Assembly (NCBI GenBank): GCA_026225395.1
Contig: JAMFSR010000007.1
Location: 1 to 64,000, forward strand
DNA length: 64,000 bases
Direction: 5' to 3'
DNA from: Granulicella sapmiensis
Lineage (GTDB): Bacteria > Acidobacteriota > Terriglobia > Terriglobales > Acidobacteriaceae
The position numbers and the translations under genes were made by a program. Below, one piece after another: positions 8,134 through 53,171 of this stretch (the first letter of the stretch is position 1; each line of letters starts with the position of its first letter). Under the pieces are notes generated by a model. The model was not told where the DNA came from and searched no databases. It saw only the letters and a program-made list of their open reading frames with translations.

Positions 8134-8168
8134 TCTCTACGCTCTACTCTCTATCCTCTACACTCTGC
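8134..8168. repeat. Tandem heptamer array after sigma-factor stop codon
   Basis: Five consecutive 7-bp units of pattern NCTCTAN (last one CTCTG) end one base before the TAA of the minus-strand sigma gene at 8170. On the coding strand it reads as purine-rich AGAG repeats right after the stop. Same unit family as 32793, 36028 and 53144. Confidence 0.8.
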
Positions 8169-8169
8169 T

Positions 8170-8940
8170 TTACCGCACATCCGCCAGCCGCGCCCGCAAC
8201 TTCCGCGTCGCCCGGAACAGCGTATTTTTTGCCGTCTCTTCCGTCGTCGAAAGCATCTCTCCAATGGTCCTCAATTTCAAGCCCTGGTAGTGCTTCAACT
8301 CAAAAACTGTCCGCTCCCGCGGCGTGAGTTCCTCAAGCGCACTCTGGATCGCCTCATTCATGCCCTTACGCTCCAGCTCCCGGGCCGGATTCGCACTCGC
8401 CCGTCCATCGGTCAGGTTCGCCAGCAGGTCGATCGACTCACCCGAACCATCGTCCACGGTCGAAGGATCCTCTCGCCGGCTCTTCCGCCGCCGCAGCTGG
8501 TCGAGGCAAAGGTTCGTCACAATCCGGTAGAGCCATGTATAAAACGAGCACTCGAACCGGAAGTTCGACAAGTGCCGGTACGCCTTGATGAACGCGTCCT
8601 GGTGTACATCCTGCGCATCCTGCTCGTTGCCCAGCATATGCAGCGCCAGTCGCAGCACGCTGCGGTCATACCGGCGAACCAGCGAATCGAACGCCGACCG
8701 GTCGCCCTTCTGCGCCGCCCGGATCAACTCGTCGTCTTCGGCGCGCTGCATCTGCCTGGCTTCAAGCTGTTCCGCGGTCATCTTCCCACGTAATCCGGAT
8801 TGGGCAGCAGCTTTCGGCACGGCTGCCGCTGATTCTACCCCCGTGGACGCACCCAGGGTCTGCTCCAACCCAAGGGCAAAGGGACTCGGGCGCCGGCGGG
8901 TCGGGTCGCCGGGAAGAACAATCGCGTTTCCTGCACTCAT
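8170..8940 (-). CDS. ECF-type RNA polymerase sigma factor
   Basis: A 256-residue sigma-70 family protein. Region 2 is ELIRAAQKGDRSAFDSLVRRY through DAQDVHQDAFIKAYRHLSNF and FYTWLYRIVTNLCLDQLRRRK; region 4 is LTPRERTVFELKHYQGL and IGEMLSTTEETAKNTLFRA, giving an RpoE-like extracytoplasmic function sigma. The first 53 residues form a low-complexity extension; an alternative start (MTAEQLEARQ, position 8781) would give a standard length. It heads an operon with its anti-sigma and a PDZ protein. A perfect 16-bp palindrome overlaps the ribosome-binding site of the 8940 start, suggesting autoregulation. Confidence 0.85.
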   Translation of the reverse strand: MSAGNAIVLPGDPTRRRPSPFALGLEQTLGASTGVESAAAVPKAAAQSGLRGKMTAEQLEARQMQRAEDDELIRAAQKGDRSAFDSLVRRYDRSVLRLALHMLGNEQDAQDVHQDAFIKAYRHLSNFRFECSFYTWLYRIVTNLCLDQLRRRKSRREDPSTVDDGSGESIDLLANLTDGRASANPARELERKGMNEAIQSALEELTPRERTVFELKHYQGLKLRTIGEMLSTTEETAKNTLFRATRKLRARLADVR

Positions 8941-8946
8941 CTTTGT

Positions 8947-8962
8947 CTGACTCCGGAGTCAG
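8947..8962. promoter_or_regulatory. Perfect 16-bp palindrome over the sigma-factor ribosome-binding site
   Basis: CTGACTCCGGAGTCAG is self-complementary and lies 7-22 bp before the sigma ATG; the GGAG inside it is the only Shine-Dalgarno-like sequence there. A second inverted repeat (TAGACG, 5-nt spacer, CGTCTA) sits at 8985-9001. Confidence 0.5.
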
Positions 8963-9057
8963 TTGAACATCTCGTACACCCAGATAGACGAAACCCGTCT
9001 ACAGAAGGTAGCAACCCCACCGCAAAGTTCCACTTTCGCCATTTAGACTGAAACCCG

Positions 9058-9684
9058 ATGCCACGACCAGCCACCAGCCTCTTTCCCGACGACACCGCCG
9101 CACCCTCGGCCTCCGCCGACTGGGTCCTCGCCCACTGCGACGGCGGTGCCCGCGGCAACCCCGGCCCCTCCGGCTACGGCGCCGTCCTCACCGATTCCCA
9201 CGGCAAAATCCTCGCCGAGCTCTCCGAGTTCCTTGGCAACCACACCAACAACTTCGCCGAGTACTCCGGCCTCCTCGGCTGCCTCCAGTGGGCGCTCGAC
9301 AACCATCACCCCCGCCTCCGCGTCACCTCCGACTCCGAGCTCATGGTCAAGCAGATCCAGGGCAAGTACAAGGTCAACTCCCCCGACCTGCGCCCCCTCT
9401 GGGAAGAAGCCCGCCGCCGCATCGCCCAGCTTGACCGCTTCGAAATCGTCCACGCCCTCCGCCACAAAAACAAGGACGCCGACCGCCTAGCCAACGACGC
9501 CATGGATCGCGGCATGGGCCGCCAGCCCACCCCCAAAACCCTCACCCCTCAAACCTCTTCCCCTCAAGCCTCTCCAAAACCCCAACCGACCATGCTCCGC
9601 GGCTTCACCCGCGACGGCGCCATCCACCTCCTCGGCAGCGCCACCCTCCCCGACGGCATCTTCGTCAAGGTGATTCCCGAATGA
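9058..9684 (+). CDS. RNase HI-like protein with Pro/Thr-rich tail
   Basis: A 208-residue protein. Residues 20-150 form a type 1 RNase H domain with all four acidic catalytic positions: Asp28 in CDGGARGNPGPSGYG, Glu68 in NNFAEY, Asp92 in TSDSELMVKQI and the Asp of DADRLAN. This compact form matches the actinobacterial/plant-type RNase HI that degrades RNA in RNA-DNA hybrids. The domain is followed by a Pro/Thr/Ser linker (about residues 155-180) encoded by DNA with a 7-bp period, and a short C-terminal segment LHLLGSATLPDGIFVKVIPE. Its stop overlaps an ATG of the next frame (ATGA at 9681). Confidence 0.8.
   Translation: MPRPATSLFPDDTAAPSASADWVLAHCDGGARGNPGPSGYGAVLTDSHGKILAELSEFLGNHTNNFAEYSGLLGCLQWALDNHHPRLRVTSDSELMVKQIQGKYKVNSPDLRPLWEEARRRIAQLDRFEIVHALRHKNKDADRLANDAMDRGMGRQPTPKTLTPQTSSPQASPKPQPTMLRGFTRDGAIHLLGSATLPDGIFVKVIPE
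9541..9584. repeat. Heptamer-period tract inside the RNase H gene
   Basis: C-rich sequence with loosely repeated CCCTCAA/ACCTCTT-type 7-mers encodes the Pro/Thr/Ser linker of the RNase HI-like protein. The period is seven, not a multiple of three, so it looks like an inserted repeat that happens to stay open. Confidence 0.45.
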
Positions 9685-9749
9685 CCCTGGCGCCTGCCCG
9701 ACACCCTCTTCAAAAACCGTTCGCCGGCCACCTGCATCCAACCCAGTCG

Positions 9750-10559
9750 ATGCTCGCCCGCCCTTTTCTTCTCGCCCTCGCCCTTGCTGTATGGCCGCAA
9801 TTCGCTCATTCGCAAGCCTCTGACCCCAAAGCCCAGCAAACCATCGAAGCCGCAGTCCAGGCCGAGCTCGCCGCCTCCCGCACCGACAAAAGCAACTGGC
9901 ACTACCGAGATCAGGACATCGGCCCCGAAAAAAACGCCACCTACGAGACGATCGAAACCCCAAAGGGCGAACTCAAACGCCTCATCGATCTCAACGGCCG
10001 ACCCATCGAAGGCGCGGCCCGCGACACCGAAACCAACCGCATCGCCAATTACGTCAACGACCCCTCCGCCCAGGCCAAGGCTCGCAAAGCAGCCGCCCAC
10101 GACGATGCCCAGGCCGAAGAGATGACCAAGATGCTCCCTCGCGCCTTCATCTGGACCATCGCCAGCGAAACACCCGAGTTCACTACCCTCAGCTACCGCC
10201 CGAACCCCAACTTCGACCCCCCGGACTACGAAGCCCGCGTCATGGGCACCATGGCCGGCCAGGTCATCGTCGCCAAAGACGGCAACCGCATCCGCACGCT
10301 CAAAGGCGCGCTTACCGAAGACGTCAAGTTCGGCTTCGGCTTCTTCGGCCGCCTCAATCGCGGCGGCAGCTTCGATATCGAACGCCGCCAGGTCGGCGGA
10401 GGCCACTGGCAGATCACCGAATCTCACGTCCACATCGGCGGCCACGCCCTGCTCTTCAAAAATATCGGCCAGCAGGACGACGAAACCAAGACCGACTGGA
10501 AGCCTTCCACCGCCACCAACCTCCGCGAAGCCGAAGAACAGCTCCGCGCCACCAAGTAG
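9750..10559 (+). CDS. Exported protein of unknown function
   Basis: A 269-residue protein taken from ATG 9750, where an ideal signal peptide begins (LARPFLLALALAVWP, cleavage near AHSQA). An earlier in-frame ATG at 9681 overlaps the RNase H stop but would put 23 non-hydrophobic residues before the signal. The mature protein has a charged N-terminal part (ELAASRTDKSNWHYRDQDI, TYETIETPKGELKRLIDLNGRP) and a C-terminal beta-rich part (VMGTMAGQVIVAKDGNRIRTLKG, FGFFGRLNRGGSFDIERRQ, WQITESHVHIGGHALLFKNIG). I recognise this style of secreted acidobacterial protein but can assign no function. Confidence 0.65.
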   Translation: MLARPFLLALALAVWPQFAHSQASDPKAQQTIEAAVQAELAASRTDKSNWHYRDQDIGPEKNATYETIETPKGELKRLIDLNGRPIEGAARDTETNRIANYVNDPSAQAKARKAAAHDDAQAEEMTKMLPRAFIWTIASETPEFTTLSYRPNPNFDPPDYEARVMGTMAGQVIVAKDGNRIRTLKGALTEDVKFGFGFFGRLNRGGSFDIERRQVGGGHWQITESHVHIGGHALLFKNIGQQDDETKTDWKPSTATNLREAEEQLRATK

Positions 10560-10599
10560 CCATCCTCCTCATCCATAACCCTCCATCCGGCCGCAAATC

Positions 10600-10634
10600 C
10601 CCTACTCCCTGCTCCCTACTCCCTATTTCCTGTC
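10600..10634. repeat. CCCTACT heptamer array with minus-strand G-quadruplex potential
   Basis: Five 7-bp units of CCCTACT type. The minus strand has four G-runs (three GGG and one GGGG) separated by 4-nt loops, so it could form a G-quadruplex about 50-85 bp upstream of the TolC-like gene start. Confidence 0.7.
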
Positions 10635-10684
10635 TTAATTCGCATCCCCAAACCGCTCGTGGCACTCTAATAGAGAACGTGACG

Positions 10685-12223: not shown

Positions 12224-12236
12224 TAGTCTCGACCGA

Positions 12237-12560
12237 TCAGGCGAGCACCTTCAGCCCGTGTTTCTGCACGATCGCGAGCAGCTTCAACGCCATCCCACTT
12301 GGTTTTTTTGCACCGCTCTCCCACTTCTCCACCGTGGACTCGCTGGTATTCAGGTAACGCGCAAACACCGGCTGGCTCACCCGGTGCTTTTCCCGTAGCC
12401 GCTTGATCTGCCGAGGCTCAATCAAGGACGGAACAGCTAGACAGGAGTCATCGAAGCTCCGCATCGTCGCCTTGTCGATAGCGCCGACTTTAAACATCGC
12501 AGACGCTGAAGAGTGAATGGCCTCATCCACGCTGCTCTTGTACTTAGGCTTTTTCGTCAT
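12237..12560 (-). CDS. HigA-type antitoxin, XRE helix-turn-helix
   Basis: A 107-residue protein. The N-terminal half (SSVDEAIHSSASAMFKVGAIDKATMRSFDD) matches HigA/antitoxin leaders that contact the toxin; the C-terminal half is an XRE HTH (IKRLREKHRVSQPVFARYLN, STVEKWESGAKKPSGMALKLL). It begins 21 bp after the RelE-like toxin gene. The toxin-first order is typical of HigBA. It should neutralise the toxin and repress the pair's promoter. Confidence 0.8.
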   Translation of the reverse strand: MTKKPKYKSSVDEAIHSSASAMFKVGAIDKATMRSFDDSCLAVPSLIEPRQIKRLREKHRVSQPVFARYLNTSESTVEKWESGAKKPSGMALKLLAIVQKHGLKVLA

Positions 12561-12581
12561 GGCATACCTCCGTCAGACATC

Positions 12582-12953
12582 TCAATGGCAGATCTCGATC
12601 CAATCCTCGTCCTGCACCAGCTGGTCGATCTGTTGTAGCGTCAGCGTCCCGTAAACCTTGGCAAGCTTGCGGAAATTGACCAGTTGGCTGTCTTCAATAT
12701 TGGCCATATCTTGCTTCGCAAATAGATACTCGTAAATCCAATATCTCCCACCCTTCGCAATGAGGATGGAACGGTACAGATTCTTGCTAAGCCGCTTCTT
12801 GTAAACGCCGCCACCGAGGTCGTCAGCCTGCCCCAGTAGCACCTGACGAATCGCAGCGCAGAGTTCATCATCCGAAATATGCGCTTTTTTGGCCGCCTTG
12901 GAAAACCAAGCCGTTTTAAAAATCTGTTCTGACTGTTCAGCTCGGCTAGTCAC
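12582..12953 (-). CDS. HigB/RelE-type toxin (DUF1044-like)
   Basis: A 123-residue protein with the RelE-like core IFKTAWFSKAAKKAHISDDELCAAI, DLGGGVYKKRLSK, RSILIAKGGRYWIYEYLFAKQD and IEDSQLVNFRKLAKVY. This matches the HigB subgroup of RelE/ParE toxins, which cleave mRNA on the ribosome. Compared with the family core of about 105 residues it has a C-terminal extension (LQQIDQLVQDEDWIEICH). First gene of the toxin-antitoxin pair on the minus strand; local GC is lower than in neighbours, consistent with horizontal acquisition. Confidence 0.8.
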   Translation of the reverse strand: MTSRAEQSEQIFKTAWFSKAAKKAHISDDELCAAIRQVLLGQADDLGGGVYKKRLSKNLYRSILIAKGGRYWIYEYLFAKQDMANIEDSQLVNFRKLAKVYGTLTLQQIDQLVQDEDWIEICH

Positions 12954-13003
12954 AACAGAAGTGTAGCACTAGGTGCAACCGATAGCATTGCCCTCCCCAC
13001 GCG

Positions 13004-14155: not shown

Positions 14156-14367
14156 GGGTCTCCACCACCCCTGCCCGCGCATTGTTTTTGTCTTGGTTTC
14201 GTTAGAGTAGCAAACAAGTCTGCGCGTTCCGCATTTTTTTGCATACGTCCGTAAGGGACCGAGCCACGACTGCCGGCAAGCCCGCTACCTTCGCCCCCAC
14301 CTGCCGTCCTACTCCAGTAGCATCAAACTCACCGGCGGCAAAACCGTCGACTACGACAGCTTCGCCT

Positions 14368-15945
14368 ATGAAGACATACCCCGCACCCAACCCGCGCCGC
14401 TCACGCCATCCCCTACCCCACACACTGGTCATCGGGCGCATCGCGAAGGGTCTGCTGTTCGCCAGTTTCGTCCTGACCCTCCTCGGACAGCCACTCACCG
14501 CCCAAACCCTCGCCCGCCCCGGTTGGGCCGGCTCCGGCCTAGCCCCCGAGTCCTGGTGGCGTCACGCCGTCCTCTACCGCACCGACACCCCCCAACTCCC
14601 CACCCTCACCCAGCTCCCCAGCCTCCAGGCCTTCGGCATCGACGCCATCCTCCTCACGCCCACAGCCATGCAGCCTCCTTCACCTTTGGCGGCCACGGGT
14701 CCAGAGGCTCCGATCCTGGATCCCAACCTCACCCCCGACACAACAAACCCAACCCCCAACCTCCAATCCCCAACCCCCGACCCACCCCTCACCCTCGACG
14801 ACCTCTTCTTCGAGTGCAGCCGCCTCCACATCCGCGTCCTCGTCCCACTCGACCTCGCCGCACCCAACTCCACCCCCGACGCCACACTCGCGCTCGCCAA
14901 ATCCTGGCTTTACCGCGGGGCCGCCGGCTTCGTCCTCTCGGGCATCGATTCCCTGACCAAACTAACCCCCACCCCCCAACCGGACACCACCACCCCCGGA
15001 CCCGTCCGCCTCCACCATCGCAGCCCCACCATCCACCTCACGCCGGTGGTCAATGAGCCCGCCATCCTCGCCAGCCTCCGCAAGCTCCTCACCCAGTTCC
15101 CGGGCGAGCGCATCCTCATCGGCGCCGCAACCTCCGAGTCCACACCCCTGCCCTCACTCCAGCTCCAGATTGCCACCATCCCCGCTACCCCCGACACCGC
15201 CCACCTCGCCACGCTCTCCGCCCAAACCACCCCACACACGCTCCTCACCCTCGCGCCCGACACGCCCTTCAGCCCCATCGAAGCCGCCATCCTCCTCGCC
15301 GGCAACCAGCCCGCCATCCTCGAAAGCTCGCAGCTCCCCGCCGACCTCCTCGCCCGCGTCTTCCCGCCTCTGGCCAAAGGCACCGTACCCGAAGCTCCCG
15401 CCGCGCCCGCTCCACCCCCGCCGCCTCCACCACCCTCCGACGTCTACGGCGCCTTCAAACCCTACGTCCGCAAGGAAACCAACACCGCCGCTGAGCGCAA
15501 ACGCAAAGCCGCCGCCGAAAAAGCCGCCGCGGACGCCGCCCAGATCGCCACCGATACCTTCCCCGTCCAGCCCATGTACCAGCCCATCACCCCCACGCCC
15601 GAAGGCCAGGTCGCCTTCTACCACCGCCTCATCCAGCTCCACCGCGCCAACGCCACCCTCCACGACGGCACCCTCCACTCGCTCGACACCGCCGGCCAGC
15701 CAACCCTCGCCTGGGCCGCCACCCACGCCGGCTCCGCCCCCCTCATCGTCGTCTGCAACCCGTCCAGCTCACCCCTCAAGCTCGACCTCACCACCCCACT
15801 CCAAAAGCTAGGCCAGGCCCGCGACATGTCCCGCACCCTCCTCCACACCGCCGCAGCCTCCGGCGTAGTCAACATCGACCGCCTAACCGTCCCCCCACAA
15901 GGCGTCTACATAGGCGAACTGTCGCACGCCTACACCTACCGCTAA
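14368..15945 (+). CDS. Amylase-fold (GH13-like) protein lacking catalytic residues
   Basis: A 525-residue protein from ATG 14368 with an N-terminal membrane/signal segment (VIGRIAKGLLFASFVLTLLG). The order of motifs follows the GH13 alpha-amylase barrel: ESWWRHAVLYRTD, LQAFGIDAILLTP, FECSRLHIRVLVPLDL, SWLYRGAAGFVLSGID, LRKLLTQFPGERILIGAA, EAAILLAG, FYHRLIQLHRANATL and a C-terminal beta domain (APLIVVCNPSSSPLKLDL). However, the GFRLD nucleophile is GFVLS, the GE acid/base is GA and the NHD site is absent. It is therefore probably a pseudo-enzyme, perhaps glycan-binding. Two insertions are extremely Pro/Thr-rich, and a Lys/Ala-rich helix (residues around 410-440) precedes the last part. Confidence 0.65.
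   Translation: MKTYPAPNPRRSRHPLPHTLVIGRIAKGLLFASFVLTLLGQPLTAQTLARPGWAGSGLAPESWWRHAVLYRTDTPQLPTLTQLPSLQAFGIDAILLTPTAMQPPSPLAATGPEAPILDPNLTPDTTNPTPNLQSPTPDPPLTLDDLFFECSRLHIRVLVPLDLAAPNSTPDATLALAKSWLYRGAAGFVLSGIDSLTKLTPTPQPDTTTPGPVRLHHRSPTIHLTPVVNEPAILASLRKLLTQFPGERILIGAATSESTPLPSLQLQIATIPATPDTAHLATLSAQTTPHTLLTLAPDTPFSPIEAAILLAGNQPAILESSQLPADLLARVFPPLAKGTVPEAPAAPAPPPPPPPPSDVYGAFKPYVRKETNTAAERKRKAAAEKAAADAAQIATDTFPVQPMYQPITPTPEGQVAFYHRLIQLHRANATLHDGTLHSLDTAGQPTLAWAATHAGSAPLIVVCNPSSSPLKLDLTTPLQKLGQARDMSRTLLHTAAASGVVNIDRLTVPPQGVYIGELSHAYTYR
14750..14784. repeat. CAACCCC heptamer array inside the amylase-like gene
   Basis: Five consecutive 7-mers of the type CAACCCC encode the Pro/Thr/Asn-rich insertion between the second and third barrel motifs. 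The minus strand is G-rich with telomere-like GGGGTTG units. Confidence 0.7.
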
Positions 15946-15986
15946 CCCAAAGCCCAACCCCTGAAACCTAAAACCTAAAACCTACC
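15945..15986. repeat. ACCTAAA heptamer array filling a convergent intergenic gap
   Basis: Six 7-bp units of ACCTAAA type occupy the whole 42-bp space between the stop of the amylase-like gene (15945) and the stop of the LOG gene (15988). Confidence 0.75.
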
Positions 15987-15987
15987 T

Positions 15988-16977
15988 CTAAGACTGCGTC
16001 TTCGCAATATCCGGCCCCAGCACTTCCTGCGCACTCGGCGCTGGCGTATCCGGAATCGGCTCTTCCGTCCGCGTCCCAAACTCCCCATCCAGATGGTTCG
16101 CCGTCAGCCCTTCTTTCAATATCGCGAACGCCTCTTCCGGCGTATCCGCAAACTCAAACAGGTCCAGGTCCTTCGGCGAAATCGCTCCCTTGTCCGCTAG
16201 CATCTGAAAATTAATCAAATCCTTCCAGTACTTCGACCCATAAATCACAACCGTGATTTTCTTCGCCAACTTCTGCGTCTGTGCGAGTGTCAGCAGCTCG
16301 AACATCTCATCAAACGTCCCGAACCCGCCCGGAAACACCACCAGAGCCTTCGCCAGGTACGCAAACCAGTACTTCCTCATAAAAAAGTAGTGAAAGTTCA
16401 AATTCAGCGCCGGCGTAATGTAAGGGTTCGGCATCTGCTCAAACGGCAGCTTGATGTTCAGTCCGATCGTCTTTCCGCCCGCCTCCCACGCTCCACGATT
16501 CGCCGCTTCCATAATCCCCGGTCCACCGCCCGAGGTGATCACAAACCGGTGCCGACGCCCAGGCAGCTTCATCGACCACTCCGTCATCATCCGCGCCAGC
16601 TCACGCGCGGCCTCATAGTAGTGCGCCATCTCGACCGCCGCTTCCGCCCGGTCCCGCTTCAACTGGCTTGTCTCTACCTCATCCCCACGCGCCGGCTGCT
16701 CTTCCGGAGGCGCCGGCTTGGTCGACCCCGTATTGTCCAGCAGCTCCATCTGCTCATGCGCTTCATCCAGCGCATGAAACCGCGCCGACCCGAAGAACAC
16801 CACCGTGTCCTGGATCCTCTCCCGCCGGAACCGCGCCTGCGGCTCGTAGTACTCCGCCATAATCCGCAGCATCCGCCCATCGGGCGAGTCTATAAAGTCC
16901 TTGTTCTCATAAGCCAGCGGAGCGCTTTCCAGCGGCAACGGTTCAGGGGCGATCTCGGTTTCCATCTCGTCAGACAT
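15988..16977 (-). CDS. LOG-family protein (lysine decarboxylase-like fold)
   Basis: A 329-residue protein from ATG 16977 (an upstream ATG at 17025 adds 16 residues outside the family). It carries the LOG motifs ITSGGGPGIMEAANRGAWEAGG and VVFPGGFGTFDEMFELLTL, which form the nucleotide 5'-monophosphate phosphoribohydrolase site. True LOG enzymes release cytokinin-type bases or free bases from nucleotides. This long bacterial form (TIGR00730-like core, extended N- and C-termini, acidic linker around residues 75-100) has uncertain substrate. No operon partner; its end is separated from the amylase-like gene only by heptamer repeats. Confidence 0.8.
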   Translation of the reverse strand: MSDEMETEIAPEPLPLESAPLAYENKDFIDSPDGRMLRIMAEYYEPQARFRRERIQDTVVFFGSARFHALDEAHEQMELLDNTGSTKPAPPEEQPARGDEVETSQLKRDRAEAAVEMAHYYEAARELARMMTEWSMKLPGRRHRFVITSGGGPGIMEAANRGAWEAGGKTIGLNIKLPFEQMPNPYITPALNLNFHYFFMRKYWFAYLAKALVVFPGGFGTFDEMFELLTLAQTQKLAKKITVVIYGSKYWKDLINFQMLADKGAISPKDLDLFEFADTPEEAFAILKEGLTANHLDGEFGTRTEEPIPDTPAPSAQEVLGPDIAKTQS

Positions 16978-17076
16978 AAGACAGCCATTGTCTCGCGATT
17001 GCGCGCGAAATCCTAGCTCGGCCATCGAAGATCGCCAAAGCCTCCAGCGCCCGCAAGCGCACCGGAAGACTTTCTT

Positions 17077-30817: not shown

Positions 30818-30844
30818 TGGGCCTGGGGGTTGGGGGTTGGGATA
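30818..30844. repeat. TGGGGGT heptamer repeats after the ppc stop codon
   Basis: Two exact TGGGGGT units (30824-30837) and a third partial one follow the TGA of ppc by six bases, purine-rich on the coding strand. Confidence 0.65.
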
Positions 30845-32792: not shown

Positions 32793-32827
32793 TCTCTACG
32801 CTCTACACTCTGTCCTCTACGCTCTGC
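32793..32827. repeat. Tandem heptamer array after carboxylesterase stop codon
   Basis: Five NCTCTAN-type 7-mers end two bases before the TAG (32830-32832) of the minus-strand carboxylesterase gene. Confidence 0.8.
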
Positions 32828-32829
32828 TT

Positions 32830-34560
32830 CTACGATCCCGGCTGCACGTAAGGCACCTGGCCGAGATATTTTCGCTCGCGGCCGCGTGGATCGTCTTCGA
32901 CGCGTGCGGGGAGATCGAAGATCATCGTCGGCCGTTTTGCTGGATCGAACGCGGGCCACTTTGGCAGCTTGGCGTTGTTCGGATTGCCCGTGCGGGCGAA
33001 GGCGATGTAGGTCTCGCTGACGATGTCGGCCATCTGTTGCGCGCGGGCTTGGTCGGCGGGCGAGCTGCCGACCATACCGGACGAGAGAGCTACGTTATCG
33101 AAGGCGAGGGGGATGTCGAGGGTGTGCGGTGCGCCCCACTTGCCGCCGTCGACGCCGGACTTCCAGTTGAGCTGGTAGACCCATGTGTGCGGTTGGGCGG
33201 TGGGGTCGGCAGCGCGGCGTTCGGCTTCGATGACTTCGCCGCGCCAGGAGCGGGAGTCCGTGGTGACGGCGAAGAAAACGTCGCTGGCGGAGTAGGTGGG
33301 GTTCCAGGTACGGTAGTTTTTGATGACTTCGGCGACGGGGAGTGAGACGGTGTCGGACTTGAGGAACGGTGCGCCTTTTTCGAGGGCGTCCGGCAGCGTT
33401 TCCCAGGTCAGATCGTAGAGCCTTGGTTGGCCGCCGCCGATCAGAACGCGAGTCTCGTCGTGCGTGTTGCCCAGCACCATCGGGATGTTGGCGGAAAGCT
33501 TCGGATCGGTGGGCGTGAAGGGGTCGACGGGGAGTGAGCGGCCGTCGGTGACGGGGCCGAAGTAGCCGCCGGCGCGCGTGGCCTGCTGGATCTCCAGCAT
33601 GGACTTCGTGCGGAGGGCGGTGGCTGCATCCGCGGCGCTCATGGCATCGAGCTTCAAAGCGGCGAGGACTTTCTTGGCGCGGTCGGTGGCGTGGTCGCGC
33701 TGCACGCCGACCACCTGCTGGCCGCTCATGGAAAGCACGCGGTGGAACAAACCCTTCGCCGGAGGCTGCGCCATCAACGTGGCGCACTTCGCGCCGCCGC
33801 CGCTTTGGCCGAAGATCATCACGCGGTGCGGGTCGCCGCCGAACTCTTCGATGTTGTCGCGTACCCATTCGAGCGCCAGGACGAGGTCTAGCTGGCCGGC
33901 GTTGCCTGAGTCTTCAAATCCCTGGTTCGGCAGCGCCTCCGCCAGATACATGTAGCCGAAGGAGTTGAGGCGGTGGTTCACTGTTACCACCACCACGTCG
34001 CCGCGCCTGGCGAGGCGCGTGCCATCGTAGAGTTCGGCGTTGCCTGTGCCATTCGCGAAGGCCCCGCCGTGGATGTAGAACATAACCGGGCGCTTCTTGC
34101 GATCGCGAAGCCCGGGCGTCCACACATTCAGGTGCAGACAGTCTTCGCTGTCATAGCCCTGATCGATGGGCAGGTGGTAGCCGCCACGTCGTGTTTCTTC
34201 TGTTTCTCGTTGTGTCAGCCACGCGGCGCTGAGGACTTCTTCGGGATTCGATGGCACGCCGGGCCGCGCACCGATCGTCTGAGGCGCCTTGGTGGTCCAG
34301 CGCGTGCAGACCAGAGTGTCGGTCCACGGAGTTGGTGGCTTCGGGGGTGCAAACCGGGTCTTTGCCGTGTCCAATCCGTACGGGATACCTTTGAACGCTG
34401 CAATGCCCTCGCCGGCTGTATAGCCGGAGACTTTTCCGGCCTTCGTCTTCGCTATGGGAGCCGCTACATCCGCCCATGCCTGATGCCCCACTACTGCAAC
34501 CGCGCCCACCGCAGCCGCACCGACCAAAACATCACGCCTGTTCATTGCCCCGTTCTCCAT
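32830..34560 (-). CDS. Exported type-B carboxylesterase
   Basis: A 576-residue protein with a twin-arginine-like signal (MNRRDVLVGAAAVGAVAVVG). The carboxylesterase family features are complete: FKGIPYG near the N-terminus, EDCLHLNVWTP, YIHGGAFANGTG (oxyanion hole), nucleophile Ser in FGQSGGGAKC, Glu in GNTHDETRV and His in GAPHTLDIPLAFDN. It hydrolyses carboxylic esters; the natural substrate cannot be read from sequence. The export signal places it in the periplasm or outside. Single gene; its 3' end carries the heptamer array. Confidence 0.88.
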   Translation of the reverse strand: MENGAMNRRDVLVGAAAVGAVAVVGHQAWADVAAPIAKTKAGKVSGYTAGEGIAAFKGIPYGLDTAKTRFAPPKPPTPWTDTLVCTRWTTKAPQTIGARPGVPSNPEEVLSAAWLTQRETEETRRGGYHLPIDQGYDSEDCLHLNVWTPGLRDRKKRPVMFYIHGGAFANGTGNAELYDGTRLARRGDVVVVTVNHRLNSFGYMYLAEALPNQGFEDSGNAGQLDLVLALEWVRDNIEEFGGDPHRVMIFGQSGGGAKCATLMAQPPAKGLFHRVLSMSGQQVVGVQRDHATDRAKKVLAALKLDAMSAADAATALRTKSMLEIQQATRAGGYFGPVTDGRSLPVDPFTPTDPKLSANIPMVLGNTHDETRVLIGGGQPRLYDLTWETLPDALEKGAPFLKSDTVSLPVAEVIKNYRTWNPTYSASDVFFAVTTDSRSWRGEVIEAERRAADPTAQPHTWVYQLNWKSGVDGGKWGAPHTLDIPLAFDNVALSSGMVGSSPADQARAQQMADIVSETYIAFARTGNPNNAKLPKWPAFDPAKRPTMIFDLPARVEDDPRGRERKYLGQVPYVQPGS

Positions 34561-36027: not shown

Positions 36028-36062
36028 TCTCTACGCTCTACACTCTATCCTCTACACTCTCG
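36028..36062. repeat. Tandem heptamer array after MFS gene stop codon
   Basis: Five NCTCTAN-type units end three bases before the stop codon (36066-36068) of the minus-strand transporter gene. The array is nearly identical to those at 8134 and 32793. Confidence 0.8.
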
Positions 36063-36065: not shown

Positions 36066-37400
36066 TCAATCCACTTCCTCTTGCGAGCTGAACTGCTTCT
36101 CCACGGCAATCAAGCTCTCTGGAGTCAACCTGTCCGCCTCACGCAGCGCCGGGAAGAAGCCCGACCACAAGCCCGTAATCACCATGCTGGCCACGCCGCC
36201 GATCACCACGGCCCGCACCGCGCCCCACCAGTGCGCGGTGAGGCCGCTTTCGTACTCGCCAAATTCGTTGGAGGCGCCGAGGAAGAGCCAGTTGACGCTG
36301 GAGACGCGGCCGCGCATCTCGGGCGGAGTGGCGAGCTGCAGGATGCTGGATCGTACGACCACGCTGATCATGTCCGCCGCACCGGTGATCACCAGCGCCA
36401 GGCAGCTCAGGTAGATGTTGCGGCTCAGTCCGAACACCACCGTCGCCGCTCCGAAGATTCCTACACAGACGAGCATCGTCCGCCCCGCCCTGCGTTTTAG
36501 AGGGATACGCAGCAGGGTCAGTGAAACGGCAAGCGCACCCAGGCTCGGCATCGCGCGCAGAATGCCCAGCCCGTGCGGCCCGGAGTGCAACACTTCCACC
36601 GCGAAGATGGGCAGCAACGAAACCGCGCCACCCAGCAGCACCGCAAACAAATCCAATGACATAGAACCCAACAGAAGCCGCGTGCCGGCCACATACTTCA
36701 ACCCGGCGAGCATCGTGCCGATCGTAAAGCCCTTCTTCTCCGCCGCGCCGCGTGGCTTGATCATGCTGAACAGCACGAGATACGTGAGCAGCAGCGCCAG
36801 CGTGAGGCTATATACCAGCGGAGCGCCGTTCCATTTGGCCAAGCCCCCACCGAACGCCACGGTGAATAGCAGACCGCCCACCATCGGCCCGCTAGCGTTG
36901 GCAATTTGGAAGATCGTCGCGCCCCACGTTACGGCGTTCACAAAGTGTTCTTTCGGCACCAGCGTTGGCACCAATGCACTCATCGCCGGTCCGCTGAAAC
37001 ATCGGCCCGTGCCGATGACGAAAAGGATTCCGTAGATCAGCCAGACGTTCCGGGTTCCCTGCAGCGAAATCCAAAGCAGCTGCGCGGTCGCCAGCGATTG
37101 CACGGTGTAGCAGCAAAGTACGACCGTTCGCCGGTCATAACGATCTGCTACGTGCCCCGCGAGCAGCGTGAAGATGATTCCCGGGAGAAACAGCGCGAGT
37201 CCCGTATATCCCAACCGTAACGCGGATTGCGATATCGACAAACCCACCGCGCGCGAGATGGCATAGATTTGCCATCCAACGGCCATTGCCTGCGCCTCGC
37301 CACCCATCACCCCCAGCAGCCGTGCCGCTGAGTAGAACCGGAAGTCCCGCGATTGCCACGCCACTGTGGCCGAAGTCTGTTTACTTTCCCCGTCAGGCAT
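36066..37400 (-). CDS. MFS transporter, EntS/DHA3-like
   Basis: A 444-residue protein with about twelve membrane helices. The loop 2-3 motif LLAGHVADRYDRRTVV matches MFS motif A (G-x3-D-R-x2-R). Helix 5/6 text (GRCFSGPAMSALVPTLVP, FVNAVTWGATIFQIANASGPMVGGLL) is typical of the EntS / macrolide exporter (DHA3) group, which export siderophores or drugs by proton antiport. The TetR gene upstream (37420-38058) is on the same strand with only 20 bp between, so transporter and regulator probably form one operon. Confidence 0.85.
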   Translation of the reverse strand: MPDGESKQTSATVAWQSRDFRFYSAARLLGVMGGEAQAMAVGWQIYAISRAVGLSISQSALRLGYTGLALFLPGIIFTLLAGHVADRYDRRTVVLCCYTVQSLATAQLLWISLQGTRNVWLIYGILFVIGTGRCFSGPAMSALVPTLVPKEHFVNAVTWGATIFQIANASGPMVGGLLFTVAFGGGLAKWNGAPLVYSLTLALLLTYLVLFSMIKPRGAAEKKGFTIGTMLAGLKYVAGTRLLLGSMSLDLFAVLLGGAVSLLPIFAVEVLHSGPHGLGILRAMPSLGALAVSLTLLRIPLKRRAGRTMLVCVGIFGAATVVFGLSRNIYLSCLALVITGAADMISVVVRSSILQLATPPEMRGRVSSVNWLFLGASNEFGEYESGLTAHWWGAVRAVVIGGVASMVITGLWSGFFPALREADRLTPESLIAVEKQFSSQEEVD

Positions 37401-42346: not shown

Positions 42347-42374
42347 CTGTTCGCTGTTGACTGTTAGCTGCTTC
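42347..42374. repeat. CTGTTNN heptamer array at GGDEF gene end
   Basis: Four 7-mers (CTGTTCG, CTGTTGA, then two variants) fill the gap between the GDPD stop (42341) and the convergent diguanylate cyclase stop (42374). Confidence 0.7.
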
Positions 42375-43606
42375 TAAAGCATCTGCTTCGGCACGGAGTA
42401 CCGGCTGCGCCACGTCGGCTTGTCCTTCACCAGCTCGCCGCTTATCGGGCTCGCGCCAATCGCACACAGCATCACCTGGTTGCGTCCATTCCGCTTGGCG
42501 CGATACAGCGCATCGTCCGCGCGGCACAGCATCTCCGTCCAGCTATGCTCGCCATCGCGCAACACGCTCACGCCGATGCTCACCGTCATCGATGCGCTGT
42601 TTTCGGTTTCATGCAGCCGCAGTTTCTCAATCGAAACCCGCAGGCGCTCGGCCACGATTCCCGCATCTTCCAGGCCGCAGCCCGGCAAAAGCACCGCGAA
42701 CTCTTCCCCGCCCATTCGAGCTGTCAGCTCACGCGGGCTCATCTCGCGTTGCAACACCGACCCGACCACGCGCAGTGCGCGATCCCCGAGTGCATGTCCC
42801 CAGGTATCGTTCAAGTCTTTGAAGTGATCCAGATCCAGCATGAGCAGCGCCAGTGAAGTCTGTTTCCGTACCGCCTGCCAGACTTCACGGATCGCCACTT
42901 CCTCCATCGCACGGCGGTTGCGCAGCTTGGTCAGGCTGTCGGTCCGTGTGTCTTCCTGCAGACGGCGGTTGGTTTCGCCCACGAATATCGCCACAAACGA
43001 GAACGAAAGCAGCGTAACCAGCGTGATCGTGATGGCGCGCATGACCACCACAAACCCGCTTTCGGGGAAATTGATCAGCCAGGCTTCCATCGGCAGGCGG
43101 GCGAACATATTCACCACGATGATCAGCATCGCCATCGCCAGCACAATCGCACAGGCCCGGGCTGTCGCCTTCAATCCCTTGACCCTGCAACGCCAAAGCA
43201 TGGTCACCGCATTCGCGCCGATACCCAATCCAATGCACCGGCCTATGTCGACGGCCAGTTCCCCGTTCACAAGTGATGCCGCCAGCACCAGCGCAATCGC
43301 GCCTCCGGCCAGCAGCAGTTCCCTGCGCGACTCAATGCCGCGCTGCTTCGCGAACCAGCGAAACCCCACATAAACGCTATAGAAAAGCAGCAACAGGAGG
43401 CAGGCGCTCAATGCTTCCGACAACCGGCTCACTTGGCTGCCCCACGTCGCCCGCGACGCGGTCCACGCAAACTGCAACGCACACGCCCCGGCCAGCCAAG
43501 GGGTTCCCCTGGTACGGCGGTCACTCCACGCCAGCAGCATCAGCGTAAGAGCGAAGGTAGCTTGCGAAATCAGGCCCACGAGGTACAACGTGTGTACGTC
43601 GATCAT
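42374..43606 (-). CDS. Membrane diguanylate cyclase (GGDEF)
   Basis: A 410-residue protein from ATG 43606, which has GGAG five bases upstream. Six or seven membrane helices occupy residues 5-215 as an unclassified MASE-like sensor, followed by a GGDEF domain: TRTDSLTKLRNRRAMEE, LLMLDLDHFKDLNDTWGH and active-site GGEEF at 299-303. The inhibitory I-site (RxxD) is replaced by SPRE, so product inhibition should be weak. It makes cyclic di-GMP from two GTP. Its 3' end lies in a heptamer array. Confidence 0.87.
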   Translation of the reverse strand: MIDVHTLYLVGLISQATFALTLMLLAWSDRRTRGTPWLAGACALQFAWTASRATWGSQVSRLSEALSACLLLLLFYSVYVGFRWFAKQRGIESRRELLLAGGAIALVLAASLVNGELAVDIGRCIGLGIGANAVTMLWRCRVKGLKATARACAIVLAMAMLIIVVNMFARLPMEAWLINFPESGFVVVMRAITITLVTLLSFSFVAIFVGETNRRLQEDTRTDSLTKLRNRRAMEEVAIREVWQAVRKQTSLALLMLDLDHFKDLNDTWGHALGDRALRVVGSVLQREMSPRELTARMGGEEFAVLLPGCGLEDAGIVAERLRVSIEKLRLHETENSASMTVSIGVSVLRDGEHSWTEMLCRADDALYRAKRNGRNQVMLCAIGASPISGELVKDKPTWRSRYSVPKQML

Positions 43607-43767
43607 GAAACTCCGGTACTTTGCCTCACGACGTACCAGCGTCGGAGACACACCTGGGAAAATGAAACAGGAGAATGACCTATTTTAGGGGCCCGTGATA
43701 AATCTGTCACCAATGCTACTATGTCGTGCGTCGAACATAGCGTGCTTTAGTGCTGAATTCGGTTCCT

Positions 43768-44844: not shown

Positions 44845-44968
44845 CTAGGGCGAGGATACGGCGAAGACCGCCGTGGAAGCAATGAAAGCCTGCGCCGCCG
44901 TTCCAATCCAGGAGATACGATGTTAGAGCGTTCCCAACCCGCGGACGCCCGTCCTATCGTCCGTACCC

Positions 44969-45616: not shown

Positions 45617-45716
45617 TCCCCACAACGGGCTACCCGTTGACGTCATCCTCCAAACACTTTGCAACGCATGCGTCCTATCAGGTCTAATCTTTTGTAAAGC
45701 GGAAAGAGAACGTGCC

Positions 45717-47863: not shown

Positions 47864-47893
47864 GGCCAGACTTAAAGAAAAGAGAAGACCCGG

Positions 47894-49420: not shown

Positions 49421-50814
49421 CGCAGCATCAGCAACACACACCCATGCCCCGCCACATCCACGGACACCTTCCTCGCAACCCCCACATCCTTCGCACTCCA
49501 AACATCCCGTACCTGCCAGCTTCGCGCTAACCCGGCCCCAAAGTCTCCAAACGGACGATCCACCCGCAACACCGCATCACCCTTGTTGAAGAGAGCCAGC
49601 GCCAAACCCTTTCCTGGTATCCGCGCCTCCCACACCACAAGGTTTCCTTCGCCGAAAACCTTCGAACTCTCCGTCGCCGTCTGATCCACCGCGATCACCT
49701 CGCGATTGGCCAGCAGATGCAGCGTGGCCTCATCCATCTGCGTCAGATTTCCTCCAAAGATCAGTGGGCTCCGCGCCATCGCCCAAAGCGTCATCATCGT
49801 TCGCTGTTCGTCCGGAGTAAGCTTTGAGCTGCGCGCCGCGCCCCACCCCGGCACAGGCCGCAGCTCTCCCAGCGGCAGCATATCCGCATCCGGCCAGTTG
49901 CCTGGCTTCGCAAACTTCGCCCACGCAGCCATCGGGTCGAAATGCCCCAGGATGCCCTGCGGAAACTTCTTTCCGGAATCCCATACGTCCCACACATCGT
50001 CGGAAATCCGCCACATATTTGCCAAGCCGCCGACCTCCGCCGCATGCTCCAGCGCCGTCGGCCCGGGCGAAAGGCTCAGCACCATCGGTCTTCCTGCACG
50101 GTCGATCGCCCGCCGGATCATTCGTATCTCGCTCACCTTATACGGCCGGTCCGCGATGCAATCCACCTTCAGCAAGTCCACGCCCCACGCCGCGTACTGG
50201 CGCAGCAGCGAGTCATACCAGGCCTGACCCGCAGCGTTGTCCTTCACACCCCAGTTCGTCGGATCCCACGGACACGTATCCGCCTGATCGGCTGCATCAT
50301 CGGCATGGAAGCCGCTGCCTTCAATCGGCAGACTGCGTTCCACCGACGCCCGCGGAATACCTCGCACGATATGAATCCCGAACTGCAGGCCCTGCGCATG
50401 CACCCACTGTCCCAGCGCCGCGAAGCTCGTCTCTTCAATCGTCGCCTCCAGCTTCGGCGTCCGGCCAACGTACGCCGTTATCATCCCCGTCTTCGCCATC
50501 GCCGAAGGAAACCTCGCCGGCACCGGCACGTACCGGCCATGCGGATCGAGCGCATAGCGCAGCTTGTCCGGCGTTCCGCGATCCTGCGGATTCTCGAAGA
50601 ACCACCCCTCATCGATCACCGCATACCGCCAGCCGAACGGCAGCAGCTTTATCTTCAACACGTCGACGTTGGCCCGAAACTCCGGTTCGGTAATGGTCAG
50701 TCCATAGGCATCCCAGCTGTTCCATCCCATCGGCGGAGTCGCCGCCATCTGCTGGCCCATCGCCAAAGCCCCGCTTGCCATTCCGATCACCAGCAACATC
50801 GCCCGAATCTTCAT
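49417..50814 (-). CDS. Secreted GH27 alpha-galactosidase
   Basis: A 465-residue protein from ATG 50814 with a signal peptide (MLLVIGMASGALAMGQQ). It has the GH27 hallmarks: TPPMGWNSWDAYG at the mature start, YAVIDEGWF, GVDLLKVDCI with the nucleophile Asp, and NMWRISDDVWDVW with the acid/base Asp. Such enzymes remove terminal alpha-galactose (or N-acetylgalactosamine, or arabinopyranose) from plant oligosaccharides. The C-terminal beta domain (LALALFNKGDAVLRV) is normal. Monocistronic. Confidence 0.88.
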   Translation of the reverse strand: MKIRAMLLVIGMASGALAMGQQMAATPPMGWNSWDAYGLTITEPEFRANVDVLKIKLLPFGWRYAVIDEGWFFENPQDRGTPDKLRYALDPHGRYVPVPARFPSAMAKTGMITAYVGRTPKLEATIEETSFAALGQWVHAQGLQFGIHIVRGIPRASVERSLPIEGSGFHADDAADQADTCPWDPTNWGVKDNAAGQAWYDSLLRQYAAWGVDLLKVDCIADRPYKVSEIRMIRRAIDRAGRPMVLSLSPGPTALEHAAEVGGLANMWRISDDVWDVWDSGKKFPQGILGHFDPMAAWAKFAKPGNWPDADMLPLGELRPVPGWGAARSSKLTPDEQRTMMTLWAMARSPLIFGGNLTQMDEATLHLLANREVIAVDQTATESSKVFGEGNLVVWEARIPGKGLALALFNKGDAVLRVDRPFGDFGAGLARSWQVRDVWSAKDVGVARKVSVDVAGHGCVLLMLR

Positions 50815-50898
50815 GGTCGCCAAGATACCACCGTTCTTCCGGGCCAATATATTTCGTCAGCAATCTCAATCGCAGGCGTCTAATAACCATCGACAGCC

Positions 50899-51957
50899 AT
50901 GTCCAGATCTCGTCCTCAACCGCACCGATTCCGGACATCCCATAAACCGACACACTTCCTCTGCCCACTCACTCTGCTTCTGCTATCCGCCACCCTCCAA
51001 GCTCAATCGCCGACCATTACAACCACCACCAACCTCGTCCTCGTCCCTGCCCTTATCCAATCCCCTTCCGGCGACACTCTCCCCACCCTCAAAGCCACCG
51101 ACTTCCTTCTTACCGACAACGGCGTTGCCCAGCACGTAACCGTCGAAGACATCGAGCATCAGCCGCGCTCCATCGTCGTCCTTCTCCAGACCGGCACCAC
51201 TGCCCAGCGCAACTTCGCCGCCTATACCAAACTCGGCACCATGCTCGACTACCTCACAGTCAATGCTCCGCACCAGGTAGCGATGATCGAGTTCGACAGC
51301 CAGCCCGAGTATCAATGGGACTTCACCCCGAACATCAACGATCTCGAAGACGGATTCACCAAACCTGATCCCGGCGACCACGGCGCCGCTATCCTCGACG
51401 CCGTCGACTCCGCCATCGATCTCCTTCGCAAACAACCGCCCACTCATCGCCGCATCATCGTGCTCATCAGCCAGACCCACGACGACGGTAGCCGCGCGCA
51501 GTCCGCTAATATCGTGCGGCGCCTTGGCGAGAACAACATCACCATCGAGTGCCTCACCTTTTCTCCCGAGAAAGCCTGGCTCAAGGATGAGTTCACCAAA
51601 CCCCGGCACGAAAACCCGCCCTACCAGCTCTCCCCCGACCTCCCGCTCGTGATGCACACCTTCAACCTCGACCGCCCGCTCCGTGAGGCAATCGGTGCGA
51701 TGCGTACCAACACTTCCGCTGAGGTCGCCACGCTTTCCGGCGGCGAGTCCTTTCCCTTCTCCGGCAAATCAGATCTCGAACGACAGCTTTCCATCCTCGC
51801 GAATCACTTCGCGGCAAGCTACACCCTCAGTTTCAGCCCCACCTCAAAACAGCCCGGCTTCCACGCGCTCCATCTTCAGATCGCCGGCCAACCCACGCTC
51901 CAGGTTTCCGCCCGTACCAGCTATTGGGCCACTTCAGGCCCGTCCACCGGGCCGTAA
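50899..51957 (+). CDS. VWFA-related acidobacterial domain protein (short form)
   Basis: A 352-residue protein with an N-terminal signal (FLCPLTLLLLSATLQAQ). It starts with the TIGR03436-type lead segment (TNLVLVPALIQSPSGDTLPTLKATDFLLTDNGVAQHVTVEDI), then a von Willebrand A fold (IVVLLQTGTTAQRNF, VNAPHQVAMIEFDS, RIIVLISQTHDDGS). The MIDAS Asp-x-Ser-x-Ser is replaced by LQTGTTA, so metal binding is doubtful. It ends LANHFAASYTLSFSPTSKQPGFHALHLQI, as in the family. These secreted proteins are abundant in acidobacteria; their role is unknown. Confidence 0.8.
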   Translation: MSRSRPQPHRFRTSHKPTHFLCPLTLLLLSATLQAQSPTITTTTNLVLVPALIQSPSGDTLPTLKATDFLLTDNGVAQHVTVEDIEHQPRSIVVLLQTGTTAQRNFAAYTKLGTMLDYLTVNAPHQVAMIEFDSQPEYQWDFTPNINDLEDGFTKPDPGDHGAAILDAVDSAIDLLRKQPPTHRRIIVLISQTHDDGSRAQSANIVRRLGENNITIECLTFSPEKAWLKDEFTKPRHENPPYQLSPDLPLVMHTFNLDRPLREAIGAMRTNTSAEVATLSGGESFPFSGKSDLERQLSILANHFAASYTLSFSPTSKQPGFHALHLQIAGQPTLQVSARTSYWATSGPSTGP

Positions 51958-52366
51958 TAGCCACGCACACCCTTCGGTCGTTTCCCATAAAATCTTGTCA
52001 AGCCCCCGCGCCTCTGCAAAACTCACAAAACCCTCATCAGCACAGGCGATTCCTCCGCAAAATAGTTGGCACAGTTACCCCAGCCAATTCGTTATTTTAT
52101 TAACAGCACCCAAACACTCGCACATAACCCTTTGCGAACCTTCGCGACCTTTGCGTTCAAAGCTTCGGCCTGTGCGATCCGTTAACCCGTTTCGTTGCAA
52201 TATTTTGCAGCTAACTCATTTAGAAAGTTATCTTTACAAGATATCCCTGCCCCGGGGCCGCACATTCTAAAGCCACTTACCCCCAAGATACCCGCTACAT
52301 AGGGGGGAGGGGGGTACCCATCCTGTACCCTAGAAATCAGTACTGCAAAACCAGTAAGGACCAGCA
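51958..52366. other. 409-bp non-coding region with repeats and G-runs
   Basis: No gene is supported. It contains three imperfect units of CCTTTGCGA type (about 52128-52156), an AT-rich part near 52090-52110, and a double run of six G (52302-52314) before GGGTACCC near the FmdB promoter. GGTACC is palindromic. The block resembles dispersed acidobacterial intergenic sequence. Confidence 0.4.
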
Positions 52367-52702
52367 ATGCCGCTCTACGAATACGAATGCACCACCTGCC
52401 ATCGCCGCATCGAGAAGATCCAGAAGTTCTCCGACGCCGAGCTCACCGTCTGCCCACACTGCGACGGCAAGCTCGAGCGCACCATCACCGCCGCCGCGTT
52501 CTCCTTCCAGGGCGGCGGCTGGTACAAGGACGGCTACGGCTCAACCAAACCCGCCGCCAGCGCCAGCGAAACCAGCGCAGCTGCGCCCGCCGCAGTCGAT
52601 AGCTCCGCTTCGCCGGCCAAACCCGCCGAGTCCAAGCCTGCTGCTGCGGCCCCAACGCCCGCGGCAGCGCCATCGGCTCCTTCCACACCAACCAAGTCCT
52701 GA
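52367..52702 (+). CDS. FmdB-type zinc ribbon protein with Ala/Pro tail
   Basis: A 111-residue protein. Residues 1-45 are a zinc ribbon of the FmdB/CxxC_CxxC_SSSS family (PLYEYECTTCHRRIEKIQ, TVCPHCDGKLERTI) with both CxxC pairs, followed by the family's FSFQGGGWYKDGYG segment. The remaining 50 residues are a low-complexity Ala/Pro/Ser tail. The family was named as a putative regulator of formamidase/amidase genes but its role is not settled. No such genes adjoin. Confidence 0.8.
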   Translation: MPLYEYECTTCHRRIEKIQKFSDAELTVCPHCDGKLERTITAAAFSFQGGGWYKDGYGSTKPAASASETSAAAPAAVDSSASPAKPAESKPAAAAPTPAAAPSAPSTPTKS

Positions 52703-52823
52703 TCTCGAACGTCTAAATGCCTAACGCCCTCCTGAAGGCATTGCGTCGTGTTGCCGTTAACTTCTTCGCGACTCCCACAATGGTCGTAAGGTCGCTGTTA
52801 TCAAATTTTGAGGTTCCTGCGCT

Positions 52824-53090
52824 ATGATTCTCCGCATGCCGCTGTTTCGCACACGCCGCAACAAGTTTGAAGCCGCCCTCGAGGACGCCGCCGCTGAGGT
52901 CGCGCGCGAAGGCCGCGTCGTGCTGCGCAACATTGGATGGGTTTCGGCCGGTGTCACCGCACTCGCGATCGGCGTCGTCGTAGGCCGCGAACTCCGCCAG
53001 CGCTACAAGTTCAACCGCCGCACCCCGTATGACAACTACGCCCACGCCGGCGACGAAACGCCCGACGTAGAGTTCGGCGTAGGCATCTAG
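52824..53090 (+). CDS. Small membrane-associated protein
   Basis: An 88-residue protein (start ATG 52824, or ATG 52836 four codons later). It has an amphipathic charged helix (RRNKFEAALEDAAAEVAREGRVVLRN), one hydrophobic helix (IGWVSAGVTALAIGVVVG) and a polar tail ending VEFGVGI. Probably inner membrane. No family recognised. Followed by a two-way terminator. Confidence 0.5.
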   Translation: MILRMPLFRTRRNKFEAALEDAAAEVAREGRVVLRNIGWVSAGVTALAIGVVVGRELRQRYKFNRRTPYDNYAHAGDETPDVEFGVGI

Positions 53091-53112
53091 CTTTATCGAC
53101 ACCCGGACACAC

Positions 53113-53139
53113 AAAAGGCCGCTCCCAGAGCGACCTTTT
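53113..53139. terminator. Bidirectional intrinsic terminator
   Basis: AAAAGG-C-CGCTC, loop CCA, GAGCG-A-CCTTTT: an 11-bp stem with one mismatch, T-run at both ends, between convergent genes ending at 53090 and 53174. Confidence 0.75.
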
Positions 53140-53143
53140 GCAT

Positions 53144-53171
53144 TCTCTATCCTCTACACTCTAATCTCTGT
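53144..53171. repeat. Tandem heptamer array at a gene end
   Basis: Four NCTCTAN-type units lie just after the minus-strand gene's TAG (53174-53176), and the next unit in register (CTCTAAG) contains the stop codon itself. Confidence 0.75.

Follow-up and report, generated by a model that had tools for sequence, protein, structure and literature searches.

This report concerns short tandem arrays with a 7-bp period in Granulicella sapmiensis (the source genome, 4.98 Mb in 43 contigs), which were noticed in bases 1–64,000 of contig 26, a 64,000-nt stretch referred to as the window. A sequence-only reading of the window had placed such arrays directly past the stop codons of seven genes. With the sequence written in rows of seven, a period-7 array is present at 7/7 of these places, immediately 3′ of the named gene and starting at most a few bases past its stop codon (Table 1). 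The gene names were upheld by Pfam (sigma-70, Lysine_decarbox/LOG, PEPcase, COesterase, MFS and GGDEF), and the gene at 53174 had zero Pfam matches. The best lag-7 scores in the 55 nt 3′ of the stop, out of 21, were 18 for the LOG gene, 16 for the sigma factor, ppc, MFS and 53174 genes, and 14 for the carboxylesterase and GGDEF genes; 5/7 attain the 16/21 matches used here as the threshold for a lag-7 cluster. The two weaker arrays are distinguished chiefly by phased YAG runs of 5 (carboxylesterase) and 4 (GGDEF). Period-7 calls by Tandem Repeats Finder (TRF) cover five of the places (8135, 15960, 30824, 32794 and 36029). Lag-7 identity is 67–75% per array, a level matched by 6e-5 to 6e-4 of Markov-1 simulated windows (per window, uncorrected for the choice of windows). 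A search of the window against Rfam at gathering score gave 0 matches, and a known RNA family was dropped as the identity of the arrays.

Table 1. Period-7 arrays in the window, with the adjoining genes and the evidence for each.
Feature	Position	Strand	Evidence
TAGAG-family array, 3′ of the stop of the sigma-70 gene (8170–8940, −)	8134..8168	−	sequence, TRF, lag-7
Coding-strand reading of the sigma-70 array: TAA-AG-CAGAG-TG-TAGAG-GA-TAGAG-AG-TAGAG-CG-TAGAG-AA	8134..8168	−	
GGTTTTA-type array, 3′ of the stop of the LOG (Lysine_decarbox) gene (15988–17025, −)	15945..15990	−	sequence, Pfam, lag-7
GGGGGTT array, immediately 3′ of the ppc stop; G-rich, without YAG	30818..30844	+	sequence, TRF, lag-7
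TAGAG-family array, 3′ of the stop of the carboxylesterase gene (32830–34560, −), then a GGCGCCC/GGGCGCC hairpin	32793..32827	−	sequence, TRF, Pfam
TAGAG-family array, 3′ of the stop of the MFS gene (36066–37400, −)	36028..36062	−	sequence, TRF, Pfam, lag-7
NNAACAG-type array, 3′ of the stop of the GGDEF gene (42374–43651, −); lag-7 weak, 14/21	42347..42374	−	sequence, Pfam
TAGAG-family array, 3′ of the stop of the 53174 gene (−), then a strong hairpin with TTTT	53144..53171	−	sequence, lag-7
GGGAGTA/GGGAGCA array with phased YAG on the minus strand, 36 nt past the stop of the 9750–10559 gene and 109 nt ahead of the next gene; not among the seven	10596..10635	−	TRF, lag-7
CCCAACC array within called gene 14368–15945 (without Pfam match); not among the seven	14745..14785	+	TRF, lag-7

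Period-7 arrays at gene edges

A sample of 859 kb of the source genome, the window included (134 kb intergenic and 725 kb coding; genes from a purpose-built caller, with approximate start codons), held 33 lag-7 clusters between genes (24.6 per 100 kb) and 11 in coding sequence (1.5 per 100 kb). Control lags of 4, 5, 8, 10, 11, 13, 16, 17, 19 and 20 gave 0 or 1 intergenic cluster each. Twenty Markov-1 simulated intergenic sets, derived from the concatenated intergenic sequence with its N spacers, gave 1 cluster altogether against 32 in the real sequence. The arrays share with heptameric simple sequence repeats, the short tandemly repeated repetitive (STRR) class, the enrichment of exact 7-bp tandem units between genes. 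They also lie close to those genes, 85% of the 33 intergenic arrays being found within 15 nt of a gene edge (54% under the null). The nearest edge is a stop in 25/33 and a start in 8/33, while stops make up 511/1044 of all edges (p = 0.0025). Densities per 10 kb are 3.06 between tandem genes (22 arrays), 2.76 between convergent genes (8) and 0.95 between divergent genes (3). These comparisons bear out the association of the 7-bp period with stop codons that the sequence-only reading proposed, but the position is less fixed than it supposed, as start codons are abutted too. Among relatives, arrays are present in genomes G002 (which we take to be G. mallensis MP5ACTX8), G023, G027 and G033, but 135 kb of Edaphobacter gave 0 clusters and 0/98 array genes. 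No lag-7 cluster was found in 50 kb of E. coli.

Orientation, defined by the strand with more G than C, is biased. The G-richer strand runs outward from the nearest edge in 25/33 arrays of the source genome (18 at stops, 7 at starts), in 11/13 of the mallensis pieces (G002 and G023, the 13 including orthologous copies) and in 7/11 of those in G027, or 43/57 when the three sets are pooled (p = 1.5e-4). The typical site is 0–15 nt past a stop or, less often, directly ahead of a start, with the G-richer strand outward. The start-edge cases look real, as three genes begin a few bases past an array whose pyrimidine strand is the sense strand; judging from their N-termini, their proteins are presumably glucokinase (Glk), TrmD and Pth. 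The idea that start-edge elements go with a copied stop triplet was abandoned, because the purine-rich beginning yields such a triplet by chance.

The arrays are lineage-specific short tandem elements at outer gene edges, and in the source genome they are mostly (YAG-NNNN) heptads of 4–5 units. YAG occurs at least four times in phase in 34/44 arrays there, ranking top of 96 patterns tested; its first occurrence is CAG in 26/34, and a G directly precedes it in 24/34. Runs of phased YAG have lengths of 4 (20 cases), 5 (26), 6 (1) and 9 (2), a distribution cut at the left by the threshold of 4. In mallensis, YAG and YCT are tied at 22/36 arrays each. Four or more G3 tracts are present in 10/44 source-genome and 13/36 mallensis arrays, and the G-quadruplex was rejected as a common property on the source-genome figure. 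One source-genome array (C26:97593–97668) is mixed, with GGTTTTA units followed by GGGCTCA units, and is a possible unit-switch intermediate.

Shared unit order and replacement in place

Four of the seven named arrays, with the unit given as CTCTAN in the sequence-only reading, belong to a single dispersed family, NNTAGAG. The pattern CTCTANNCTCTANNCTCTA has 107 overlapping exact matches genome-wide, against 0 for a reversed-pattern control, and was found in 17/28 genomes of the genus and in 0/33 genomes outside it. Among 72 TAGAG elements in the examined sequence, most of them at loci fetched for carrying the family, 35 start within 20 nt past a stop and 11 lie within 20 nt of a start. The source-genome form is (stop)-AAG-CAGAG-TG-TAGAG-GA-TAGAG-TG-TAGAG-(CG/GA)-TAGAG-AA. 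The spacer order TG-GA-TG-(CG or GA) is common to its loci, and the spacers are position-specific (first TG in 39 counts, second GA in 36); in mallensis the order is TG-AG-GA-TG. Adjacent units with an identical spacer number only 4/139 in the source genome (29% expected) and 0/54 in mallensis (25% expected). Slippage by 7 bp, if it took place separately at every locus, would not produce a common order without identical neighbours. Such a pattern would result from whole-array copying, or from slippage in steps of 14 and 21 bp with copying afterwards. Given this order, copying between loci is likely for the TAGAG family. Two suggestions of the sequence-only reading do not carry over to it: the arrays were said not to descend from one repeat, which fails where the spacer order is common across loci, and simple 7-bp replication slippage is a poor fit to so few same-spacer neighbours.

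Changes at single places can be followed between G002 and G023, which were compared over 205 kb in common (35 blocks, 94.06% identity). Ten orthologous stop edges carry an array in at least one of the two genomes: five have the same family in both, one has the same family with a 14-nt deletion, one has an array in G023 only, and three differ in family. The three switches are AGTGATA vs TAGAG (98.8% protein identity), TAGAG vs GGGATTA, and GGGATTA vs a GGAAACA/CTAACA form, the last judged by eye, with a sub-threshold array in G002. Between an rpmJ-like gene and the next gene (the names rpmJ and rpsM are our assumption from the look of the proteins), about 50 bp differ, and the flanks as aligned show no difference. 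Both inverted arms of the G023 247570/247902 site changed family together, and where G023 contig 9 has an inverted TAGAG pair, G002 has unrelated sequence. A spurious lag-7 cluster from a stretch of that contig that reads N (near 159441–160566) was excluded. The arrays are rewritten in place, one family being replaced by another between unchanged or nearly unchanged flanks. The idea that the period is fixed while the unit changes holds at such orthologous places (3/10 stop edges).

Two genes allow a wider view. Past the LOG stop, where the array in the window fills the gap up to the convergent gene ending at 15945, arrays with differing units occur in 6/9 lineages, the array of X112 being weak. 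Past the carboxylesterase stop they occur in 4/6: TAGAG in the source genome, CAAACAG/GAAACAG in G010, GGAAACAG/GGAAGTAG in G023 and G002, and many copies of CTCTTAG in G027, while G007 and G016 have no array there. Relatives of the carboxylesterase above 50% identity were found in only seven genomes besides the source, six of them already in the comparison, and the wider comparison added no species. The G027 array (L122/L085), directly past the stop, is a perfect CTCTTAG run of at least 14 units in 107 nt and is unusually long for a heptamer array. Differing units at orthologous edges fit a process rather than the inheritance of one repeat. The sequence-only reading is supported in this respect at the LOG, carboxylesterase and G002/G023 stops, but not for the TAGAG order, which is common across loci.

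Persistence of this kind is a matter of few genes. The ppc stop is reached by 31 of 35 loci fetched, and inspection by eye showed an array there in just one of these 31 relatives, L113. The comparison covered 141 ortholog groups present in at least two lineages, and in 23 of them one or more lineages have an array; the source-genome gene set used here includes 19 regions picked for TAGAG arrays, and L147–L150 and L187 were picked likewise. Array-sharing pairs number 28 against a permutation mean of 4.6, all from 4 groups (15, 9, 3 and 1 pairs), so the excess should not be generalized. Concentration in one group is the unusual feature, six lineages being reached in 2/2000 permutations and four or more in 160/2000. 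General conservation of array sites was rejected, as only the concentration in LOG and carboxylesterase stands out.

Proposed origin and retention of the arrays

The most likely reading, given slightly under even odds, is that slippage acts together with copying from array to array, and that the arrays are then kept at gene edges. Local slippage would lengthen and shorten the arrays, the 14-nt change above being the one observed case, and bigger changes would come about by non-reciprocal copying or template switching between arrays. Such copying may be aided by the common YAG beat and by a common beginning made up of the stop codon, some purines and then GCAG. The arrays would be retained as short unstructured spacers from the coding edge to the next signal, often a terminator hairpin, and may be harmless or mildly useful there. 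They are themselves unstructured unless paired. A strong hairpin adjoins the 3′ side of 19/71 TAGAG elements, compared with 99/756 control windows (13%; p = 0.004), and by eye the stem starts at the array end and at least four T follow it at L148, L186, L192, L193, L199 and window 53144.

A number of observations weigh against this reading. The spacer idea covers a minority of cases, 52/71 TAGAG elements having no adjoining strong hairpin, and 7/72 elements lie inside called genes. Inward-reading arrays make up 14/57. The YAG form is not universal, since it does not lead in G027 (5/18) or G033 (4/11). Only 4/23 ortholog groups with arrays have one in two or more lineages, which is at chance level (permutation mean 3.2), so that just two genes speak for persistence. 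The case for copying is drawn from patterns, no switch having an identified donor, and the gene calls depend on the purpose-built caller.

It is possible, although rather unlikely, that the arrays are phased binding sites, in which a protein that recognizes YAG at 7-nt intervals, in RNA or in DNA, keeps them at some gene ends while the other four bases drift. The rank of YAG in the source genome and its tied first place in mallensis would agree with this, as would runs that peak at five units and then stop, and the persistence of the LOG and carboxylesterase places under other units. However, the LOG arrays of G001 and X99, the AGTGATA family and the ppc array have no phased YAG run, the run-length peak is truncated at the left by the threshold, no candidate protein is known, and start-edge arrays would put the motif on antisense RNA.

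Three further explanations are each improbable; the first two of them, like the phased binding site, are live rivals to the main reading. Arrays could act as three-frame stop cassettes, one stop codon per heptad closing all frames and limiting readthrough or frameshift extension. In the source genome, 37/69 array genes have stops in three frames within 42 nt, compared with 24/729 others, in a set that includes regions picked for TAGAG arrays. Such stops are, however, an automatic consequence of TAG at period 7, and the first unit is usually CAG. They are useless in the sense direction at start edges, where arrays face outward, and as a conserved property they were rejected, all frames being closed in just 3/6 LOG and 1/5 carboxylesterase arrays.

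There is a similarly small chance that the arrays are arms of intergenic hairpins serving as terminators or mRNA ends, lone arrays being halves of decayed palindromes. An inverted copy of the same family lies within 400 bp of 21/93 arrays (source genome 5/44, G002 5/9, G023 C7 7/11, G027 4/18, G033 0/11), and the arms that switched together at one site would fit. Yet most arrays are unpaired, including all four TAGAG arrays of the window, and lone arrays are unstructured. At one inverted TAGAG pair, in G023 contig 27 (L187:9475–9795), a Y1_Tnp gene resembling those of REP-associated tyrosine transposases (RAYTs; REP, repetitive extragenic palindrome) lies between the arrays; G002 has the first array and no gene at this place.

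No better odds are given to an extension of gene edges: after a break or loss in intergenic DNA, 3′ ends at gene edges would be extended outward on a heptad template and then joined, and the template may be another array or a dedicated one as in telomerase. If true, this would account at once for arrays that face outward at both kinds of edge, for inverted pairs within one family and arms that switch together, for a constant 7-bp period under differing units, and for slots set by gene ends.

A still poorer candidate is replication slippage alone, acting on heptamers in DNA under no constraint; this bias is known from bacteria, and neither copying nor function would be needed. Among the long repeats of many bacteria, heptamers are the most frequent class (Mrazek 2007, as cited in the searched parts of PMC4692102 and PMC4679880), and perfect runs do exist, as in G027. 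The common order of TAGAG units with avoidance of identical neighbours, the family switches between nearly unchanged flanks and the outward orientation leave this reading strained. Movement of REP-like elements by RAYT transposases is highly improbable and was rejected. Y1_Tnp is present in 26/28 genomes of the genus, one of the G023 copies being flanked by inverted TAGAG arrays as noted above, but the 92.9 kb around 30 RAYT loci contain 6 arrays, a density of 6.5 per 100 kb where the backgrounds are 5.1 and 2.9; single units are not palindromic, and most arrays lack an inverted copy.

Other repeats were seen in the same data. Non-heptad dispersed repeats of about 40–260 bp, in tens of copies and with several inverted pairs, occur at L041:193–276 (with G023 copies), L205:14029–14120 and L212:14836–15130 (with G002 copies). 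In the window, the called gene at 14368–15945 contains abundant short C-rich repeats (TRF at 14591, 14748 and 15690).

Described heptamers and significance

Heterocystous cyanobacteria carry several families of intergenic STRR heptamers per genome, and the arrays described here resemble them in having several such families. This analogy, drawn by the sequence-only reading, is apt, but a nearer match among the systems found described is that of the Xanthomonas/Nostoc heptamers, GGGAATC / GGGGA(C,T)T (Rehm et al. 2015, PMC4692102, where Calothrix heptamers are also cited). According to the searched text of that paper, these are intergenic, with few between divergent genes, and lie on the coding strand within 50 bp past stops and on the non-coding strand within 50 bp before starts. 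They form inverted pairs (70 in Xanthomonas campestris pv. campestris, Xcc), have a preferred unit number and vary in sequence at the same genes between two related species; each genome has one G-rich unit, for which a G-quadruplex was proposed. Acidobacteria are not named in the searched text. The present arrays are similar in their outward G-rich strand close to stops and starts, their rarity between divergent genes and their inverted pairs. They differ in having several units per genome, four G3 tracts in just 10/44 arrays and unit switches at orthologous edges. Position, orientation and pairing are as in the Xanthomonas/Nostoc system, as far as the searched text describes it, and the units, the G-quadruplex capacity and the visible replacement differ.

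Two other systems share part of this anatomy, again as described in the text searched. The TAACTGA direct repeats of Beggiatoaceae (MacGregor 2015, PMC4679880) are likewise intergenic heptamer arrays near the edges of open reading frames, and in one orientation they place a stop codon in every frame, but they have one unit, mostly forward and just upstream of starts, whereas the arrays here have several units, lie mostly past stops and face outward at start edges. Geobacter metallireducens (PMC2700814) has elements scattered over its genome that, as here, consist of four or five heptamers in tandem, with 49 copies of one class and a putative regulatory role; unlike the present arrays they also occur within genes, and no orthologous switching is reported in the text searched. 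No report of such repeats in Acidobacteriota was found, in a search that mostly did not cover subscription papers.

Heptamers have been known in bacteria for decades without an explanation of why the period is seven, why they sit at gene edges and how they spread. Acidobacteriota show the same anatomy with units of which most could not fold into the G-quadruplex that was proposed for Xanthomonas. A given place can hold, in close relatives, repeats of different sequence but equal 7-bp period; this hints at active copying or rewriting, and the in-place replacement of families between two 94%-identical genomes makes the question of origin testable. Models of how bacterial genomes evolve would gain from the arrays a class of intergenic sequence that changes fast and is locked in position.

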